Position numbers and translations under genes: made by a program
Source: Lineolata rhizophorae
Taxonomy: Eukaryota > Ascomycota > Dothideomycetes > Lineolatales > Lineolataceae
Assembly (NCBI GenBank): GCA_010093515.1
Contig: MU001698.1
Span: 248,001 to 312,000, forward strand
Reading direction: 5' to 3'
Length of the DNA stretch: 64,000 bases
In this document: positions 2,077-56,855 of the stretch, in pieces
How positions within the stretch are numbered: the first letter of the stretch is position 1
Layout: each line of letters starts with the position of its first letter
The notes under the pieces: generated by a model
Seen by the model: the letters and a program-made list of their open reading frames with translations, nothing else
The model's database searches: none
Told to the model about the DNA's origin: nothing

Positions 2077-4110
2077 ATGCCGTACAACACGCGGCGCAAG
2101 TCGCTGTCGCTGCCGTCCCTCGGCATCCACGTCCCGAACAGCTCGCGATCGTCATCGCACCGCTCACCGCCCTCAGCCGCCTCCGCGACCGCGCTCACCC
2201 CGGCCACCCTCGATGCCGCGCACCGGCCGCCGCAACAACCGCCCTCGAAAAAAGTGAAGCGCTCGCACTCGTCGGCTTCGGCGTCGCCGCCGCTCGCCAG
2301 CCCGCCGCGGCAGGTGGCGATACGCTTTCAAGACGAGCGGCCGCCGGCGCCAAAGAGCGGCGGCGGGGTGAGCGCGCGCGGCGGCAAGGTCGTCGAGAAC
2401 ACGCCGCCGCCGTCGCCGGGATGCGAGTCGGCCGGCTTCAAGGTCGACACCGAAGGCATCAGGGACGAGATCGTCGTCGCGGTCATCGAGCAGCTGGAGA
2501 CGACGGCGAACCGGCCGCACCTGCTCAAGGAGCTCGCCGCGGTGCTCGGGGTGCATATCCCGCTTATTGGAAGGTACGTACCGTCGCCGTGGATCCGCGA
2601 TCCACCACCTCCACCACGGCGCGCCCACGCGGCAACGACCCACGGTGAGGCGCTTGTCGCGTCGCCAGGGTCGATCCGACTCCGGGCCACGGTTCACTGA
2701 CGCAACCTGTACAGCTCCGCCAACCCGACGGCCATCATCTCGTCGCGCCTTTCCAACTACATGCGCCGCCCCTGGACGGCGCTGTCGCCTTGCCCCGTAA
2801 CAAAGCAGCTCGTCGGCTCGCACCCGAAGCGCATCTTCTTTTTCCTGGCCACGTGTCCGCGCCAGCCGTTCCCGGACCTGCATGACGAAATGCGCGCGCC
2901 CAACGCCGCGCGCATCATCTCGCCCTCGCTCTCGTCGACCGGCGACTCGGACGCGGGCTCTGAGGACCGCTCCGACACCTCGTCCGCCGTCGATGACATG
3001 CTGCGACGCCGCCGCGAGCTCTCGGCGTCGCCCGAGGTCGACCTTAGCTCGCCCGAGCTGGACGGCGACGTGGTCGACGTGGACATGGACGTGCTGTCGG
3101 CGGCGGCGCGCAACCCTGGTGCGCCCGTCACGCCGCCCGGCATCGCCTTCGACGCCCGCCACTCGCCGCTCCACCACCTACAGCCGCACCATCACCACCA
3201 CAATCATCACCACGGCCACCACGACGGCGTCCATCACGGCCCCGCCGGCGCGCACAACGCTGGCCATGCGGCCCGCCACCAGACGGTACCCCCGCCCCTC
3301 GAGACGGACGAGCGCGAGTTCACGGCCACGGCGTCGTCGCTGCAGCGGCAGCGCGCGCTCGAGCTGCGCGACGAGAGCCTGCGCGCACGCGCACGCGCAC
3401 GCGCCCGCAACTCGCGCCCCGGGAGCAGCGACGCGAGCGCCATCGCCGCCGGCGCCGGCGCCGCAGCCGTCGCCGTCCTCGCGCACGATGGCCGCTCGAT
3501 CAAGATGGAGGACGGGTGCGCGGACGCCGACCCTGACGACGTGATGCGCGACGTCTTCGACGCCTTCGACGTCGATGGCGAGGGCGACGCCGCCGCGGCC
3601 GCCACCGGTGCGCGGGGAGTGGACGGGGCCGGGGACGGGTCGACGATGAAGGATGGCGTCGGGGCGGTCTACATGGGAGGCGCGAGGCTGGCCGACGAGG
3701 CTGACGACGAGGAGAGCGAGGCACGGCGCAATTCCGAGGCCGCGGCGGCGCTGTTCGGTCACGTTGCCGCGGCGGCTGCTGCGGCGGCGGCGGCGGAGGA
3801 GGAGGTGGAGGCGGAGGTGGAGGAGGAGGATCAGCGGAATAAGGGGGCGGAGATGGTGGTGGAGGGTGGTGATGCGTCGGGCGCGGGCGTGGGCGCGAAG
3901 AGGACAACGAATGCGGCGGGGACGGCGGAGGGGGTGAAGATGGAGATGGAGATGGAGATTGGTGGGATGGGCATGGTGGCGGTGGGGGCGGCGGCGGGGC
4001 CGCGTGGCGGCGAGGTCGAGGTCGAGGAGAGGGGGTGGAAGTGGGCGGAGCTGAGAAGTCCGGAGAGCGTGGAGTTAAGGGAGTTGGAGGATATGTTTGA
4101 GGAGTTTTGA
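2077..4110 (+). CDS. Gds1-like winged-helix protein (putative transcriptional regulator)
   Basis: Two exons (2077-2573, 2715-4110) encode 630 residues. The intron has a GTACGT donor and a CTGTACAG acceptor and joins a Gly-Arg-Ser-Ser stretch in frame. Residues about 124-221 match the fungal Gds1 winged-helix domain, including HPKRIFFFLATCPRQPFPD at its end. The remainder is low complexity: a basic Ser-rich N-terminus with a possible nuclear signal (PSKKVKRSHS), a His-rich block at about 323-354, an Ala run, and acidic Glu/Asp tracts at the C-terminus. In yeast, Gds1 is a little-studied nuclear protein connected to mitochondrial function, so a nuclear regulatory role is inferred from the domain only. 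The ATG at 2077 was chosen because sequence upstream of it is UTR-like pyrimidine tract. The Ala/Glu-rich C-terminus is unlikely to be conserved. Confidence 0.8.
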
Positions 4111-46608: not shown

Positions 46609-49600
46609 ATGGGAGAAGCCTCAGACGCAGCGCCCAGGTTGGTCGACCGCGTTCATTCATGGTCCAAGGCGTCGCCCCCCCGCGCCGCCTTCTCCTCCCC
46701 TCCCGCCGACACCGCATCGGACGGACCCCCAGCAGCAGCCGCCGCACCCACCGCGGACGCAGGCCCGCATCCTCGCCACCACCATCACCAGAACCACCTC
46801 GCCGTCCCCTCGGGGCCGCAGCGTAATGCCTCGACCGGCACCGCCAGCACCTCTGGCGCCGCGGCTAGCACGTCCACCGCTAGTAGCGGCATCGACTACG
46901 CCGTCGACGCCAACCGCCAGCTCCACCACAACGCCGCCCCGGACGGACCGGCAAGCGCCGACACCGCCACGGGCAACGTCGTCGCCGACACCACGACCAA
47001 CGAGCCGCCTCCGCCCGCGCCGCCTCCCACGCAGCAGCACGGCAAGAATACCCAAACTGATGGAGCGGCGCCTGCCGCCGTGAGCGAGAAGGTCGCCGGC
47101 GGCCGCGGCGGCGGTCCCGACGACGGTGGCGACAGCAGCAACACCAGCAGCGACAAGCCGCCGACGACGACCACGCCGCTGCCCTGGCCCTCTCGCTTCA
47201 AGAACGCCTGCAAGCGCTTTGTTATGCATATGCGCGACGTGCTCACGTACAGCTGGGTCAACGTGCTGCTCATCTTCGTGCCCGTCGGCATCGCCGTCGA
47301 GGCCCTCAAGCTCAACGCCTCTGTCGTCTTCGCCATGAACGCCCTCGCCGTCATCCCCCTAGCCGGCATGCTGAGCCACGCGACTGAGAGCGTGGCTAGC
47401 AGGATGGGCGACGCCATCGGCGCCCTGCTTAACGTTACGTTTGGCAATGCCGTTGAATTGATCATCTTGTGAGTTGTCCCGCCCTTGTGTCTGTGTGCAT
47501 CGCATGTTTTGACTGACCCATGTTTTGTAGTATGTACGTCATGTTTCATGAACCCCGTCCAATCACGGCTGCAGGGCAGTTTTGGAACTGCACTGCATTA
47601 ATAAATGCAGCCTTGCCGATCCCTCTTATCGGAATTGTTTGATGCTAACTCTCTACTACTCGGGATAGCATTGCCTTAGTGAAGGTATGTACTAGCCCAC
47701 AAGACTCGATATTTGTTGCTGGCGGTCAGCTGACCTCATTTTGTAGAATGAAATTCGGGTTGTCCAAGCGGCCCTTTTGGGCTCAATCCTTGCCAACTTG
47801 CTGCTTATCCTTGGCATGGCTTTCCTATTTGGTGGTCTCCGTTACAGAGAGCAGGTATCGGTCACAATTTTAAAGACTATTCCTGCGTCCGAGTTGCTGA
47901 CCTGGTCTTAGATCTACAACAGCACCGTGACACAAATGAGTGCCTGTTTGCTTAGCTTGAGTGTTATGAGCCTATTGCTTCCTGTAAGTATCGCACTTTT
48001 GTCGCCTGCTGGAGCGATGTTAGGCTGAACCTTAATGCAGACGGCATTCCACGCCTCATTCTCAGATGATGACAAGGCAGACTCAAGTACCCTGAAGATT
48101 AGCCGGGGTACAAGTATCGTGAGTGTCCTGCAATACTATGTATGTACGCCCAAGCTAACGTTTGTTAAAGATCCTCCTCATCATCTACGTTCTGTATCTA
48201 CTCTTCCAACTCAAATCGCATAGCTACCTCTATGCCAGCACCCCTCAACACATTGTTGACGAAGAGTCTTACCCCGGTGTCCTTGCGGATTTCATAAATT
48301 CGTCTAGTTCTAGTTCATCCTCTAGCTCTAGCTCGGATGACTCGGACACGAGCTCTGGCTCCCACACAACCGCCAAGAAGATCAAGCGAGCCTTCCGTCA
48401 TAGGAGAAGACGCAAGTCGAGTGCTAGTTCGAGCAATACGCCGTCGGTTCCGTCCATGATCAGCTCGCCGTCGGTGGAGAGCCACCCCAGACTATCTGCT
48501 CCTGAATATTCTCACGGCTCTTTTGCATCGCATGGGGAACGGTCGAGACGTGGCTCTGTTTTGGGCGCTATCTTGAGCGCCGATGAGGCGGATGCTGACG
48601 ACGAGCGTCCCGGGGCGCAGCCGCGTGTAAGAGACTTCGAGAAAGGCAACGCTGAGGCGTCCAAGTCTCTTGAGAACAAGAAGCGCAAGAAGAAAAAGCA
48701 CAAGAAGCGGCACCACAAGCACGACCATGACCCGGAAAATGCCATCGAAGAAACGAACGACGAGAAGGCTGAGCGCGAGAATAGCACCGCTGTTACTGGC
48801 GACGGCATCGATGGCCCTCGCGTCGGTTTCGCCGATGATGTCCGCGGCCCCCCGGAGGTCACCACCGGTGGCACGCCCATATCGGGCCGTCGCCCTTTGA
48901 CCATGCGCCAGCTATCCGGCCGCCAGGCCTTCCGGCCCGGCCTGCCCAGCCTCCTGTCCAACAACGTCTTCGTCAGCCAATACACGCCGGACGGTCAACC
49001 CCAGCTCTCGGGGCCCAACGCTGGCGGCGGTAGTGGTCCCGGCACCAATGACCGTGGTCTACGCCGCACGACGTCGTTACCGGACAGGCTCAACCGGACC
49101 ACGTCGGGCCCGCCGGCGCGCGCGCCGCCCGTCTCGAGCCGCGTCGCGGCTGCGCAGTACAACCGGCCGACGGCGGGGCCGGACACTCTCGACGGGGCGC
49201 AGGAGGAAGACATACCGCGGCTGTCGCGCACGGCGGCGGTGGTCACGCTGCTGCTGACGACGGGCCTCGTGGCCGTGTGCGCCGAGTTCCTGGTGGACAG
49301 CATCCCGGAGATGATCGAGAGCAGCGCCGTCAGCGAGGCCTTCATCGGGCTTATCATCCTGCCCGTCGTGGGCAACGCGGCGGAGCACGTGACGGCCGTC
49401 ATGGTGGCGACCAAGAACAAGATGGACCTGGCCATCGGGGTCGCCGTCGGCTCGAGCATCCAGATCGCCCTCTTCATCACGCCGCTGTGCGTCATCCTCG
49501 GGTGGTGCATGGGCAAGGACATGACGCTGTATTTCACCCTGTTCGAGACTATCAGCCTCTTCGTCACGGCGTTCGTCGTCAATTTCCTCGTCCTCGACGG

Positions 49601-49775
49601 CCGCAGCAATTATCTCGAGGGCGCGCTGCTGTGCGCGTCGTACATTATCATTGCGCTCGCGGCCTTTTTCTTCCCCGATAGCGAGAGTCAGAGCCAGCTG
49701 GGGGGGTTTGACCAGCCGGATGGGGACGTGGGAGCGGATCGGTTGGCGAGGTTGTTGGTTAGGTTGGTGAAGTGA
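46609..49775 (+). CDS. Vacuolar Ca2+/H+ exchanger (CAX/Vcx1 family)
   Basis: Proposed exons are 46609-47468, 47531-47533, 47669-47684, 47747-47854, 47912-47983, 48041-48118 and 48171-49775, giving 913 residues. The 3-nt exon is a proposal discussed under findings; without it the protein is one residue shorter. After about 190 hydrophilic residues come the first CAX half ([26 protein letters not shown] at about 279, [18 protein letters not shown]) and the second half ([40 protein letters not shown] at about 780, [13 protein letters not shown]). The two GNAxE motifs bind Ca2+. The loop between halves is unusually long, about 290 residues, with a Ser run (about 422-437) and a Lys/His-rich stretch (about 548-563). 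The protein should use the vacuolar proton gradient to store Ca2+. Confidence 0.85.
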
Positions 49776-50657: not shown

Positions 50658-52366
50658 TCATTCCCCCTCTTTGCCCCCCTCCCCCCTAACAAACACCCTC
50701 CTCCCAAACTTCCACACCATCTCCACCCACACCTCGCCCGCTCCTCCTCCCTCTCCTCCCCCATCCTCCCCTCCCCCCAGCACAACCAAATCAGCGTCGC
50801 ACCCCGGCTCCAACCCGCCCTTGACGCCGTCCAGCCCGAGCATGCGCGCCGGCGCGCCCGTCACGCAGCCGACGGCCGCGGCGAGCCCGCCGCCCGACCA
50901 CGCGGCGAAGTTGTTGACGCACTCGACGAGCGTGACGGCGGAGCCGGCGATGCGGGGGGCGGGCTTGCGGGGGGTGTCGGGGGCGGACGCGCTGGCCGAG
51001 GACCCGGGCGAGGAGGCGGCGGAGGAGCCTGGGGAGGCCGCGCGCTCGCCTTGCTCCTCCTCTTCCTCCGACTTCGTGGCGGCGGCGGTGTCGTTGTTGC
51101 TCTTGCTGGCGGCGCCGGGCGTGGTGGCGGAATCGGCGACGGAGCCGTCGAGCGTGAGCAGCGCGCCGCGCTTCGTGATGCGCTCGCCGTTGGTCCAGGC
51201 GTAGGTGCCGTCGGGCAGGCCGAGCAGGGCCATGCTGTCGGTGACGAGGACGCAACCGCGCGGGTGGGCGCGGTACGCGAGCGCGACCGACGTCGGGTGC
51301 AGGTGGATGCCGTCGGCGATGAGGCCGAAGAAGGGCTTCTGGGGGGTCGCGGCGGCGGCGGCGGGTAGCGGGCGGGCGCTGACGTCGAGGGCCGAGGACG
51401 ACGGCGACGACGGCGACGATGCTATTGGGGAAGAGGGCAGAGGGGAATCCGTCCCGAGCAGCCCGAAGACGCCTGGGTTCCGGTGGTGCAACGGCCGCAT
51501 CGCGTTGAAGAGGTGCGTCACCATGCGTGCGCCGGCCCGCATGGCCGCGCCGGCCACCTCGTAGCTGGCCTCGGTGTGCCCGATGCAGACGACGAGACCC
51601 CGGGCGGCGAGCTCGCGGACGACGTCCAGGGCGCCGGGGAGCTCTGGCGCGAGCGTGATGGCGCGGATCGGGGATGGGAGGTCGTCCTGCTGCCTCTCGG
51701 CCCAAGGGAGGTTGCTGACTCCGTAGCAGGCCTCGACGTCGGCGATGCCGTTGGGAAAGCCCGGGAGGAGCACGGAGGGGGAGTGGATGCCGTTTTTGGT
51801 GGGGGAGATGAAGGGACCTTCGACGTGGGCGCCGAGAGATTCGGCGCCGAGGGATGAGTCGCGGGAGGTGCCTGAAGGGGCGAGGAAAGGAAGGACCTGG
51901 AGTGGATGCAGTCAGTCAATTTCCATCTATAGGAATCACGCAGTAAATTGAACACGCAAGGCAGGCTCAATGCGAACGGAGGGAAACAAACCTTGTGATA
52001 GACCTCGCTCTTCTGGCTGGGCAGTGTCGGCAGGTAAGCCGTGACACCCGTTTGGACGAGGCTCTTGTTCAGCTTCTTGACGCCCTTTGCGTACTGGGAG
52101 ATATCTTCGGGCACTGTTGAGAAGTCAAAGCCGAAGCCGCCGTTCATCTGTACGTCCATGAAACCGGGTGCAACCAAGCGTCCACCAAGGTCGACGACTT
52201 CGTCCGCCGTGGCCCGCTCCGCGTAGAAGACCTCTTGGCTGTCCAAAATTTTGCCATTCTTGGCGCTGATCCAGAGGTCTTCGTTGACGATGCGGCCATC
52301 TTTGATGAGGCGGCAGTTGGTGAGTTTCGTGATGCCCGTGGGACTTGGGTTGATGGCGGATGGCAT
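50658..52366 (-). CDS. N-acetylglucosamine-6-phosphate deacetylase
   Basis: Two exons (52366-51992, 51896-50658) give 537 residues. The 95-nt intron has a GTTTGT donor and CTCCAG acceptor and joins SEVYHK to VLPFLAPSG. The amidohydrolase motifs are complete: PGFMDVQMNGGFGFDF, HVEGPFIS with the metal-binding Glu at about 151, CIGHTEASYE at about 229, THLFNAMRPLHHRNPG at about 250, IADGIHLHP at about 322 and the catalytic Asp in VTDSMALLG at about 343. It converts GlcNAc-6-P to glucosamine-6-P and acetate in cytosolic GlcNAc catabolism. A poorly conserved Ser/Glu-rich insertion (about 385-430) precedes GLEPGCDADLVVL. The gene is divergent from the GH3-GNAT gene, as in the fungal GlcNAc cluster, where it is called dac1. 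Confidence 0.88.
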
Positions 52367-53446
52367 CTTGCGTGGACGAAGATTTTGTTTTCGTGGCGAC
52401 TTCGCCAGGAGAGATGAATATCGAAGTTCGATCAAGTGTCAAATATAGACAGTGAAAGGAAGTTGGAAATGTATACTCGGCGAAAGACTGATAATTTATT
52501 GCAGTTGTTCTTTTTTGGCTGCAATGGAGATAGTAAGGAATGGTTAAATGAGTGACAAGAAATGAATAATGAAACGAAGGGTTTGGAGGTGCGGACGGCC
52601 TACCTATATCACTGCCTACGTCACATTATCGAAAAGATGACTTATCAATCCACCATCACCTGCTGGAGAATTTGCATCGCAGCGATTCGCCAGACATCCG
52701 CCGCGGAATCGACCGGCAAACGGAAATAGGCCTATCAAGGGTGGCGTCGCGGCCACGAGCGCCACGGCAGCTTAGAGTTGCAGCGGGATCGGGCTGGCAT
52801 ACCGGTTCTAGGCGTGGAGGTTTCCGCGGGGCAGCGAGTCCACGTCAGTGTAACCTCGTGGGGAAGCCCTACTGTCGTTCTGGGTGGACGTCGAGGCCGA
52901 AGTCACGGGGGACGCAGTGCGAAAACCGATGCAACCTCCTCCGTCTCCCGGCGCGCCCCGCAGCCGCAAGCGGCCGCTGCGTCAGCAGACGCTCGGGGTC
53001 CCGGGCCTCTGGTGCAACCCGGCGGCTCAACCGCGTCCAGAGGACCACTCCTCGCCCGCCCCGCGACGTTGCAGCCCGCAATGCCGCCCCAGATGCGCCG
53101 CCGCGCCAACTAGCCTCTGCCGCTCCAACACCAGCGCCGGCAGCAGCCCACGCAGGCCCCCATCGTCCCAGGCCCAGCAGGGCGTCCGCGCGCGACGCTC
53201 GGCGCCCACACGTCCGCCCGTGGATCGCGAACAGGTGCGCGCCGAAGCCGAAGCCGCCGCCAGGCCCCCGGCCCGCCAGCCCACACGCCCGTTAGGTAGC
53301 AATTCGCCGGCTCGTCGGCGACTCCACCGTCCAGCAACTTGGCGCCCGGCCCTCTCCGCCCTTGAGCCCCGAGCCGCCGAGCGCCCCGTATCCTCCGCTC
53401 TTGCTCCTGTTGCTGTGTGTCGCTGCATGCGCGGCCCCCGACCAAC
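52367..53446. promoter_or_regulatory. Shared divergent promoter region of two GlcNAc genes
   Basis: About 1.08 kb separates the start codons of the deacetylase (-) and the GH3-GNAT gene (+). The half next to the deacetylase is AT-rich and the other half is very GC-rich. I did not find an evident Ndt80-type (CRCAAA) site by eye. Confidence 0.5.
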
Positions 53447-56400
53447 ATGGCCGCCGGCAAGGTGGACCATCTGGACCCCGTGTGGGACGACCTTGACAAG
53501 TATGGCCTCCCTTTTCACTCCTCTTTTGGTGCCCTTGTCGCTTCTTCTTTCCTCTTCGCGCCTCTCCGGAGGGCGGCCGCATGCCGCTTTAGTACGATTC
53601 ATGTGACTTGGATTGACTGACTAACTGACAATCGCGGCAGGACATTGGTGAGCCTCATTGTCCCCCAATAGCCCGGTCACATATATGAAGTCGCTGATAT
53701 GACGTGACCAAAAAGGGGCAATTGTTTATGATGGGCTTTGATGGCACTACAGTGACACCCCAGATACGAACGTTGATTGAAAAACACCACATTGGGTCCA
53801 TTCTATTGACTGCGAAGAACCTTAAGTGTAAGCCTCAACCGCTGGCATCTTTGAACGTTTCTTCTGTAAGGGTCTGCCCCGAAGGGTTATGCTACATGCT
53901 CGGCTGGCCGGTTCCTTGTGTGCCTATCTGGAAATTATTTCATACCAGTCCCGTGCCTGTCCATTCTAGCGAGGGAAAAGTAACGAGCTGACGGGTGCGC
54001 TCTGAAGCTGCCGAGGACACAACCAAGCTTGTCTACGAACTGCAAAAATGCGCCCACGATGCCGGCCACCCGGTGCCTCTATGCATCGGCGTCGACCAGG
54101 AGAATGGCGGCGTCAACAGCCTGTTCGATGAGATATACATCCGCCAATTCCCCAGCGCTATGGGTCTGGCCGCGACCGGTTCCACGGAACTGACCTACGA
54201 GGTGGCCAAGGCTACGGCCCAGGAGATCGCCGCCTGCGGCATCAACTGGATCTTCGGACCCTGTCTTGACGTCCTCACCAACGCCCGCAATCAGCCGCTT
54301 GGCGTGCGCACCACCGGTGACGACCCGCAGGAGGTTTCCAATTATGGCATCGCCTTCATGAAAGGCTACAAGGAAGCCGGCCTGGCGACGCTGGGCAAGC
54401 ACTTCCCTTCCTACGGTAACCTCGAGTTCCTCGGTTCCGCGCTAGACGTCCCCATCATCACCGAGTCCCTCGAACAGCTCAGTCTCAGCGCCTTGGTTCC
54501 GTTCCGTAATGCCATACAACAAGGCATCGATTCCATGATGGTCGGCGGATGTGCGATGTCGTCGGCCGGCCTGAACGTCATGCATGCATGCCTTTCCGAC
54601 CAGGTCGTCGAAGGCCTCCTTCGAACAGATCTCAAGTTTGACGGCGTTGTTGTGTCCGAGTGCCTTGAGATGGAGGCGCTGAGCCACAACATTGGCGTTG
54701 GCGGAGGCACCGTCATGGCCGTCGGCGCCGGCTGCGACGTTGTTCTCCTATGCCGATCGTTCTCGGTCCAGCAGGACGCCATCGCCGGGCTGAAACTGGG
54801 GATAGAGAACTCCATGGTCACCAAAAGCCGCATCAAGGAGTCCCTTCGGCGAGTGCTGACGTTGAAGGCAAAGTGCACCGACTGGGCAAGCGCGCTAAAC
54901 CCTCCTGGGATCAAGCTTCTGTCCACGATGCAACCATCGCATACGCAGCTGTCGACCAGAGCCTACAACAGCTCGATATCAGTTGTGCGTGATAAGAACC
55001 ACCTCATTCCGTTGTCTAACCTAATAGACCCGGAAGAAGAACTGCTTCTGCTCACGCCGCTGGTGAAGCCGCTAGCAGCATCTGCCGCATCACGTGCTGT
55101 CTCAGAAACCATATCGGCCGGCTCACCGGAGCCAGCTGTATGGGAACGAAGTGCATCTGTCATGAGCGGCGAACGGATCTTTAGAGAGCTTGGCAGATCG
55201 TTGGCAAGGCATCGGAACGGACGCGTCCTTCACACCTCGTATACGGCTAATGGCGTCCGTCCTGTTCATGAGAACCTTATCAATAGGGCTAGTGCGATCA
55301 TAGTGCTAACAGCGGACGCCAACCGCAACCTGTACCAGCAAGGTTTCACGAAGCATGTGTCCATGATTTGTAACATGCAATACTCCACCGGCGGCGAGAA
55401 GAGAGAAAAGCCTCTTATCGTTGTCGCCGTCAGCTCACCCTACGACTTCGCCCTCGACTCTACCATTGGCACATATATATGTACCTATGACTTCACCGAA
55501 ACCTCCCTGAACTCGCTGGCTAAAGTTCTATATGGCGAGATCGTTCCCACTGGCTCGGTTCCCGGAACCATCAGCCACAGCCAGAAACTACACCAGTCGC
55601 GGCAGCACTGGCTGGTGGAGATGTTCAACGAGGAGCGCGACGCCAACGCGCTCGACAGCCTGATCAACGCCGTCACCGAAGGCACTCCTCCGAACCAGCG
55701 CTCGGAGCTTTCCGGCAGCACCTCGAACACGTTCCTGCTGCACAACCCGGACGTGATTGAGGCGCACTTCGTCGTCCGCAACAGCTCCACGCAGCAACTG
55801 TACGGCTTCTGCTCGACCTACTTCTTCAAGGCGACGGGCACCGGGGCCATCGGCGCGCTCTTCGTCGACCCGGCCCGCCGCAAGCTCTCCATCGGCCACA
55901 GCCTGCACAACCGCGCCATTCGCACCCTCCTCCAGCGCGACGGCGTCAAGCGCTTCCAGCTGGGCTCGCGCCTGCCGTCGGTGTTCCTCGGCATCCCGAC
56001 GGGCCACAGCTCGGAGCGCAAGCGGCTGCGGTCCTGGTTCGCCAACATGGGCTGGAACACGGCGCTCTCGCGGCCCGTGTGCAGCATGGTGGCGCGCAAC
56101 CTGGGGGCGTGGGCGCCGCCGGACGGCATGGCCAAGAGCCTGCAGGGCGCCGGCGCCGAGTTCGACCTCGTCTTCGGCTGGGAGTACGCCGCGCAGATAC
56201 TCGACCACATCAAGACGAGCAACCGGCAGGGCCTGGCCGAGGTGTACAAGCTGGCGCTCGCGGACAGCGCCTACTGCGGCGTGATCCGGGCCAAGCGGGC
56301 CGACGACCCCGGCACCATCGTCGGCTCCGTCGTCCTCTACAACGTCAACTCGCACCTGGCCGAGTTCGTGCCCGTCATCAAGGACATGAGCGACGCGTGC

Positions 56401-56855
56401 GGCGGCATCTCGAGCCCCGTCATCTCGCCCGCCGTCGGCGAGTACTCGACGCTGCTGCAGGGGCTCATCCTGCTGGGCATGCGCCAGCTCAAGGCGCAGA
56501 ATTGCAGCGCCTGCGTTTTGGATTACGTGAGTTCTGCGCCCGTCTCGTTTCCTTGCGGCTATTTCATCTTCATCGAAGTTATCGTTCCAATGCGCAGAGC
56601 ATAGTTTCCCTACTCCCCTTTTCCTTCTCAGTCGAAGTTCAAGGTCATTAACCGTTCGCGACGGCTGCCACGGCCGTTGTGGCTCCAAAAAAAAGAAATA
56701 GTATGCAGGAGTCTGAACTGAATAATAACTCTGTGTTGCAGATGGACGGCGACGGCAACATCGACGCCCTCTCGGCCATGGGCTTCGAGGTGCTGCACAA
56801 CTTCGAGGAGGTCAGCTGCGACGCCGCGACGTGGACCATGGTGCCACCGTCGTAG
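53447..56855 (+). CDS. GH3 domain - GNAT acetyltransferase fusion (Nag3-like)
   Basis: Proposed exons 53447-53499, 53641-53647 (7 nt), 53716-53827, 54008-56526 and 56742-56855 give 934 residues. The spliced N-terminus reads DDLDKTLGQLFMMGFDGTT, then LLTAKNLKSAEDTTKL across the next junction. A GH3 (NagZ-like) domain occupies about 18-340, with CIGVDQENGGVNSL, GKHFPSYGN at about 187-195 and VVVSECLEMEAL near 275. A middle domain follows (LLLLTPLVKPLA, DANRNLYQQGF). The last third (about 636-934) contains GNAT-type acetyltransferase sequence (GTGAIGALFVDPARRKLSIG, MGFEVLHNFEEVSC). In Trichoderma the corresponding gene nag3 belongs to the GlcNAc cluster. The role may be turnover of GlcNAc conjugates; enzyme activity is uncertain because catalytic motifs differ from NagZ. 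No signal peptide is present, suggesting a cytosolic protein. Confidence 0.8.

Follow-up and report, generated by a model that had tools for sequence, protein, structure and literature searches.

The exchanger gene and its exons

The window, by which we mean the whole 64,000-nt stretch of Lineolata rhizophorae DNA that was analysed, belongs to a genome assembly of 31 Mb in 48 contigs. On its forward strand lies a gene whose model spans 46609–49775 and is open throughout. Judged by profile matches and repeats, the predicted product is a CAX-type Ca2+/H+ exchanger of the CaCA superfamily: the whole protein scores 375.8 bits against TIGR00378 (cut-off 211.15) and 367.1 bits against TIGR00846 (cut-off 317.45), PF01699 (Na_Ca_ex) matches the N-terminal half above its cut-off, and both alpha-repeats (GNAxE...GS) that mark the superfamily are found. 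The features of the gene are these (window coordinates, with the basis for each in brackets):

46609..47468, + strand: exon 1, with a putative start codon; ends ...GNAVELII plus TT, phase 2 (open frame, gene model, CAX/Na_Ca_ex homology)
47469..47530, + strand: intron 1, 62 nt; donor GTGAGT, branch CTGAC at 47513-47517, acceptor TTTTGTAG (direct sequence)
47530..47535, + strand: overlapping decoy donor GTATGT, lost upon removal of intron 1 (junction sequence)
47531..47533, + strand: candidate 3-nt microexon TAT, phase 2-2; read as TT-T AT-C, Phe-Ile (splice enumeration, family spacing, low chance rate)
47534..47668, + strand: intron 2, 135 nt; donor GTACGT, branch GCTAAC at 47644-47649, acceptor GGGATAG (direct sequence)
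47669..47684, + strand: 16-nt exon, C ATT GCC TTA GTG AAG, reading IALVK; GTATGT directly 3' (sequence, gene model, protein alignment)
47685..47746, + strand: intron 3, 62 nt (gene model)
47747..47854, + strand: exon ending ...REQ (gene model, protein alignment)
47912..47983, + strand: exon IYNSTVTQ...LLLP (gene model, protein alignment)
48041..48118, + strand: exon TAFHASF...RGTSI (gene model, protein alignment)
48171..49775, + strand: last exon, carrying the second alpha-repeat (28 residues, no intron) (open frame, gene model, homology)

The 3' end of exon 1 reads ...GAATTGATCATCTT at 47468, with the GTGAGT donor from 47469. Within intron 1, TGACTGAC occupies 47510–47517 and the acceptor sequence TTTTGTAG finishes at 47530; TAT then takes up 47531–47533 and GTACGT begins at 47534. 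These splice features, and the two ways of joining the exons that follow from them, had been put forward in the original prediction, and on inspection of the sequence both are exact. Direct joining of 47468 to 47669 gives ELIIFIALVK in a protein of 912 residues, whereas inclusion of TAT gives ELIIFIIALVK in a protein of 913. TAT is symmetric (phase 2-2) and a multiple of three, so that skipping it preserves the frame. Intron 1 is of like size to introns 3–6 of the gene model (62, 57, 57 and 52 nt), and intron 2 exceeds the other introns of the gene in length.

Some further features of the region may be recorded here. Were intron 2 retained, the frame would run on, counting from the Phe codon, through 37 codons to a TGA at 47640–47642, probably by chance. 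Twelve consecutive serine codons (48300–48335) fall in the long segment that separates the halves of the exchanger. Beside the gene lie a frame resembling GlcNAc-6-phosphate deacetylase (51518–52438, - strand; best PDB match 7nut) and a single frame joining a GH3 domain to a GNAT acetyltransferase domain (53992–56604, + strand), an arrangement that looks like a fungal GlcNAc catabolism cluster.

Protein alignments with and without TAT

The best PDB match of the N-terminal half is 4k1c, 'vacuolar calcium ion transporter', which we take to be yeast Vcx1; two other PDB sequences, each named vacuolar cation/proton exchanger 1, are presumably plant CAX1. With TAT included, the alignment runs without gaps through the region for all four PDB sequences found (these three and YfkE, 4kjr). 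When TAT is left out a one-residue gap opens in every one of the four, at the junction in three and just after ALVK in YfkE, and the alignment scores fall from 187 to 181 bits, from 105.5 to 100.2 (two sequences) and from 94.8 to 91.3. The profiles behave likewise, with 76.6 bits with TAT and 70.9 without for Pfam Na_Ca_ex, 194.5 and 189.1 for TIGR00378 and 192.1 and 185.6 for TIGR00846, and a weak TIGR00367 match (19.9) appears with TAT only. Both Ile residues of the resulting FII agree with Vcx1 and with a paralogue from the same genome (L002), and the extra residue sits four to five positions past the conserved Glu of GNAVE.

The main rival to the reality of the microexon is a single ordinary intron of 200 nt (47469–47668), in which TAT and its flanking sites would be there by chance and the protein would have, in this helix, one residue fewer than its relatives. 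Its outer splice sites are both good and it keeps the frame. The scores speak against it, since leaving out TAT costs 3.5–6.5 bits in each of seven comparisons (four PDB sequences and three profiles), as does its length, which is more than three times that of introns 3–6.

Length of the first alpha-repeat

The first alpha-repeat of the exchanger, counted from GNAxE to GS, is 28 residues long with TAT and 27 without, and the intronless second repeat of the same protein is 28. Among 20 relatives the first repeat has 28 residues in 18, 30 in one (L004) and 39 in another (L003); none has 27. The 18 comprise all three PDB proteins measured, five of the seven paralogues found in the source genome (L002, L005, L007, L009 and L013) and all ten bacterial or archaeal genes (L023–L025 and L050–L056). 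The second repeat has 28 residues in 13 of the 13 relatives in which it was measured, namely the three PDB proteins and the ten bacterial or archaeal genes. The two longer paralogues show that the length of the first repeat can vary, upwards. The longer spacing that the original prediction assumed for relatives is borne out: from GNA to GS they have at least 28 residues, and direct joining gives 27. The single 200-nt intron would make this the sole 27-residue first repeat among 21 (the exchanger and its 20 relatives), and would do so in the very helix that holds the conserved Glu of GNAxE.

Several points bear on how these counts are to be read. L003, L004, L007, L009 and L013 are without an exact GNAxE and were measured by eye from the aligned position; in L005 and L013 an intron lies inside the first repeat, so their 28 depends on the splice sites chosen; and the repeats of L024 and L025 finish in GA rather than GS. 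The pairs L050/L051 and L053/L054 are identical or near-identical in the repeats, and several of the bacterial genes are near-duplicates. Left out of the 20 were L048 and L049 (below the TIGR00378 cut-off and without a match to the repeat pattern) and the duplicates L046 (= L024) and L047 (= L023). A search of genome contigs yielded three bacterial or archaeal relatives among 101 stretches; in a scan of IMG/VR for relatives 13 stretches fitted a pattern and none was confirmed, and a text search of the literature for GNAVELI found no mention.

One of the paralogues deserves separate note. L013 (1501–1850) is a divergent CAX-like sequence (E 0.2) with ANIVPL in place of GNAVEL, and its first repeat is still 28 residues long given an intron after PLI. 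Without the conserved Glu at this point, it may be no ordinary exchanger.

Splice paths and the chance rate of the motif

Splice products were enumerated as up to three successive GT–AG reactions within 47456–47746, with introns of 45–260 nt, a branch-like motif and HAG; sites made by earlier steps were permitted, and an open frame into the downstream exon was required. Two open products remain when donors must fit GTRNGH, and 17 when any GT is accepted; either way the TAT product is the only one whose first repeat has 28 residues, in support of the earlier proposal that TAT acts as an in-frame exon restoring the spacing of the helix. Three bases added to either neighbouring exon, or shared between both, do not agree with GT–AG. 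The product of the single 200-nt intron is the other of the two with consensus donors.

The same enumeration bears on a spliceosomal twin intron (stwintron), where one intron would sit inside a splice element of a second. Filamentous ascomycetes are known to have stwintrons, which resemble the present arrangement in having two introns very close together whose order of removal matters, but they split a splice element of another intron, whereas here three coding bases part two complete introns (PMC6616335). With consensus donors, the enumeration gave only the direct-join and TAT products and no stwintron, and we give this explanation next to no credence.

How often the flanking motifs would fall together by chance was estimated from 264 kb of the source genome, both strands (527,570 bases), with the gene's own intron masked. 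The strict composite, YTRAC-YAG-NNN-GTRNGT, has two sites in this sample, or 0.00076 per 200 nt, and occurs in 0.06% of 20,000 dinucleotide shuffles of the 200-nt intron (0.0006). The loosened form (YTRAY, HAG, GTRNGH) reaches 0.0057 per 200 nt in the genome and 0.74% of shuffles (0.0074), and without the branch requirement the figures are 0.043 and 2.1%; bare HAG-NNN-GT is frequent (0.45 and 19%). The expected number of branch–acceptor–NNN–donor composites in such an intron is 0.0006–0.007. Unmasked, the strict motif gives four matches (three distinct sites, with the TAT site in two registers) versus two when the sequence is reversed as a control. Though rare, the motif is unenriched in the sample as a whole, which gives no hint that such exons form a class across the genome. 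The other two composites lie in L042 (contig C29), at 946–973 (where no frame of at least 60 residues is listed) and at 3991–4023 (antisense to a 794-residue open frame), and both are taken as chance.

An intron model trained on coding potential was dropped: it selected two introns and then a mixed set of 190, with a poor site consensus, and missed the introns of the exchanger. Motif-conditioned counts against a reversed-sequence control were used in its place, together with the composite rate given above. Candidate introns with a strict branch number 337 with any donor versus 169 in the reversed control, and 50 versus 16 with a consensus donor, of which 21 versus 4 are up to 80 nt long. GTACGT, the donor of intron 2, begins five of the 50 candidate introns with a consensus donor.

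A single 200-nt intron would thus need a rare composite motif to have arisen by coincidence, and we consider it quite unlikely. The evidence from motifs and that from homology are separate, and they agree because three bases are the very size needed to close the gap in the protein. The three bases are internal, fall well within the 30 nt allowed for a microexon and stand between a complete upstream acceptor and a complete downstream donor; as coding sequence they keep the frame and improve the agreement with the protein family. On these grounds TAT at 47531–47533 is very probably a real internal exon of 3 nt, present in the mRNA from which the functional transporter is made. It would supply the last base of the Phe codon and the first two of the Ile codon, giving ELIIFIIALVK and a first repeat of 28 residues.

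Order of intron removal

We infer that TAT is included in the mRNA, that intron 1 most likely leaves before intron 2 and that the shorter product would function poorly or not at all. As three bases are hardly recognisable as an exon, intron definition would take out the two introns one after the other. First to go would be the 62-nt intron 1, fusing TAT to the 860-nt exon 1; this step would destroy the competing GTATGT donor and leave GTACGT alone, from which the 135-nt intron 2 would then be spliced out. The junction formed by removal of intron 1 reads CATCTT followed by TATGTACGT, in which GTATGT is without its G and GTACGT remains. If GTATGT at 47530 were instead spliced to 47668 first, the intron 1 acceptor would become TTTTGTA followed by C, and use of the next AG would end in ...ELIIFEE-stop. 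Because prior use of GTATGT leaves this premature stop, the sequence speaks for intron 1 as the first to leave. Departure of intron 2 first from GTACGT would yield the same mRNA; for a 9-nt exon of potato invertase, the second intron is reported to be the first to go (cited in PMC4674806).

The original prediction had also allowed for stepwise (recursive) splicing through GTATGT at 47530 without any exon. This donor overlaps the acceptor and matches the donor consensus, but its G goes with intron 1, leaving the junction without a regenerated donor and so unlike a zero-length recursive site; used first, GTATGT leads to the stop described above. This part of the prediction does not hold up, and we regard recursive splicing without an exon as extremely improbable. 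There is a likeness to metazoan recursive-splicing exons and cryptic microexons, where the donor for the second step lies at or just after the junction of the first (PMC6224609), but here GT lies 3 nt downstream of the junction and none is regenerated at it. Because of that distance, the TAT bases would stay in the mRNA.

The decoy could itself matter to the cell. GTATGT at 47530 is nearer the donor consensus than GTACGT, which departs slightly from the fungal GURWGH (PMC6616335) in having C at position 4. A constitutive TAT exon in which the AG-TAT-GT decoy forces intron 1 out first, so that the order of splicing could gate vacuolar Ca2+ uptake, is a tentative idea that we think rather doubtful. 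On this reading, failure or skipping would result in a premature stop or in an exchanger with a one-residue shift of register after the conserved Glu. One residue corresponds to about 100 degrees of helix turn, and omission of TAT, by displacing the remainder of the helix by that amount, would probably harm transport.

Alternative inclusion of TAT also has to be weighed: both forms would be made, and the skipped form, in frame and lacking one residue, would act as a regulated on/off switch. The phase and length of TAT would permit this, and a glucose-regulated microexon of about 20 nt has been reported in Xlr2 of Trichoderma virens (PMC11121469). However, no sign of regulation was seen in the sequence, and if ascomycetes use intron definition (PMC6616335), pairing across 62 nt would be favoured over pairing across 200 nt. 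We consider such a switch unlikely and constitutive inclusion of TAT the better reading.

Intron 2 and its possible origin

Intron 2 was considered as an introner-like element. A DNA search of the 31-Mb genome, of a kind that skips very common words, matched its own copy alone; there being no second copy, it is therefore not a recent introner. Nor does it have a special RNA structure, since its folding is no more stable than chance would give (z -0.88, with 34 of 200 shuffles folding as well). The whole of 47469–47684 folds with moderate stability (z -2.09; 6 of 200 shuffles as good). The paralogues have introns elsewhere in the GNAVELII helix, which interrupt the first codon of the repeat in L002 and L009 and follow ELI or PLI in L005 and L013. 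A simple history is possible for the exchanger, in which an exon of 19 nt (TAT plus the 16 nt, beginning TATCATTGCC) was split by the gain of intron 2.

Comparison with known small exons

Plants and animals are both known to have exons of 1–3 nt (PMC4674806, PMC7392893, PMC8831610). The 1-nt exon of Arabidopsis APC11 resembles TAT in being an ultra-small internal exon flanked by complete introns; it is constitutive and was deduced where annotated cDNA and genome disagreed (PMC4674806). It differs in that it is essential for the frame and proven by cDNA and reporters, whereas TAT is 3 nt long, frame-neutral and predicted from sequence. Micro-exon 8 of Drosophila homothorax is, like TAT, internal and of 3 nt, but it is an animal exon, alternative, and consists of the initial 3 bp of a larger, 48-bp exon (PMC7392893), whereas TAT stands alone and is most likely constitutive.

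Among fungi the nearest parallel is the Xlr2 microexon, which also comes from a filamentous ascomycete and is absent from the annotated gene model, although much longer than 3 nt and glucose-regulated. According to that paper, functional microexons were previously undescribed in filamentous fungi and had been tested solely in S. pombe (PMC11121469). The shortest exon in a survey of basidiomycete P450 genes is 6 bp (PMC1184071); an annotation table for Thielavia terrestris gives a shortest exon of 3 bp, with no detail (PMC8176577), a Ganoderma gpd construct includes a '3-bp exon 2' piece (PMC8379801), and 3-bp exons are mentioned for fungal mitochondria (PMC12308204). A partial search of the literature turned up no fungal spliceosomal exon of 3 nt that has been characterised, a result that is not proof of absence.

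If confirmed, TAT would rank with the smallest fungal exons spliced by the spliceosome, and would suggest that an exon of 3 nt can be dealt with by intron definition alone, with no need of exon definition. The AG-TAT-GT overlap offers a simple natural test of an obligatory splicing order. Gene predictors easily miss such exons, with the consequence that conserved proteins can be mis-annotated by single residues.
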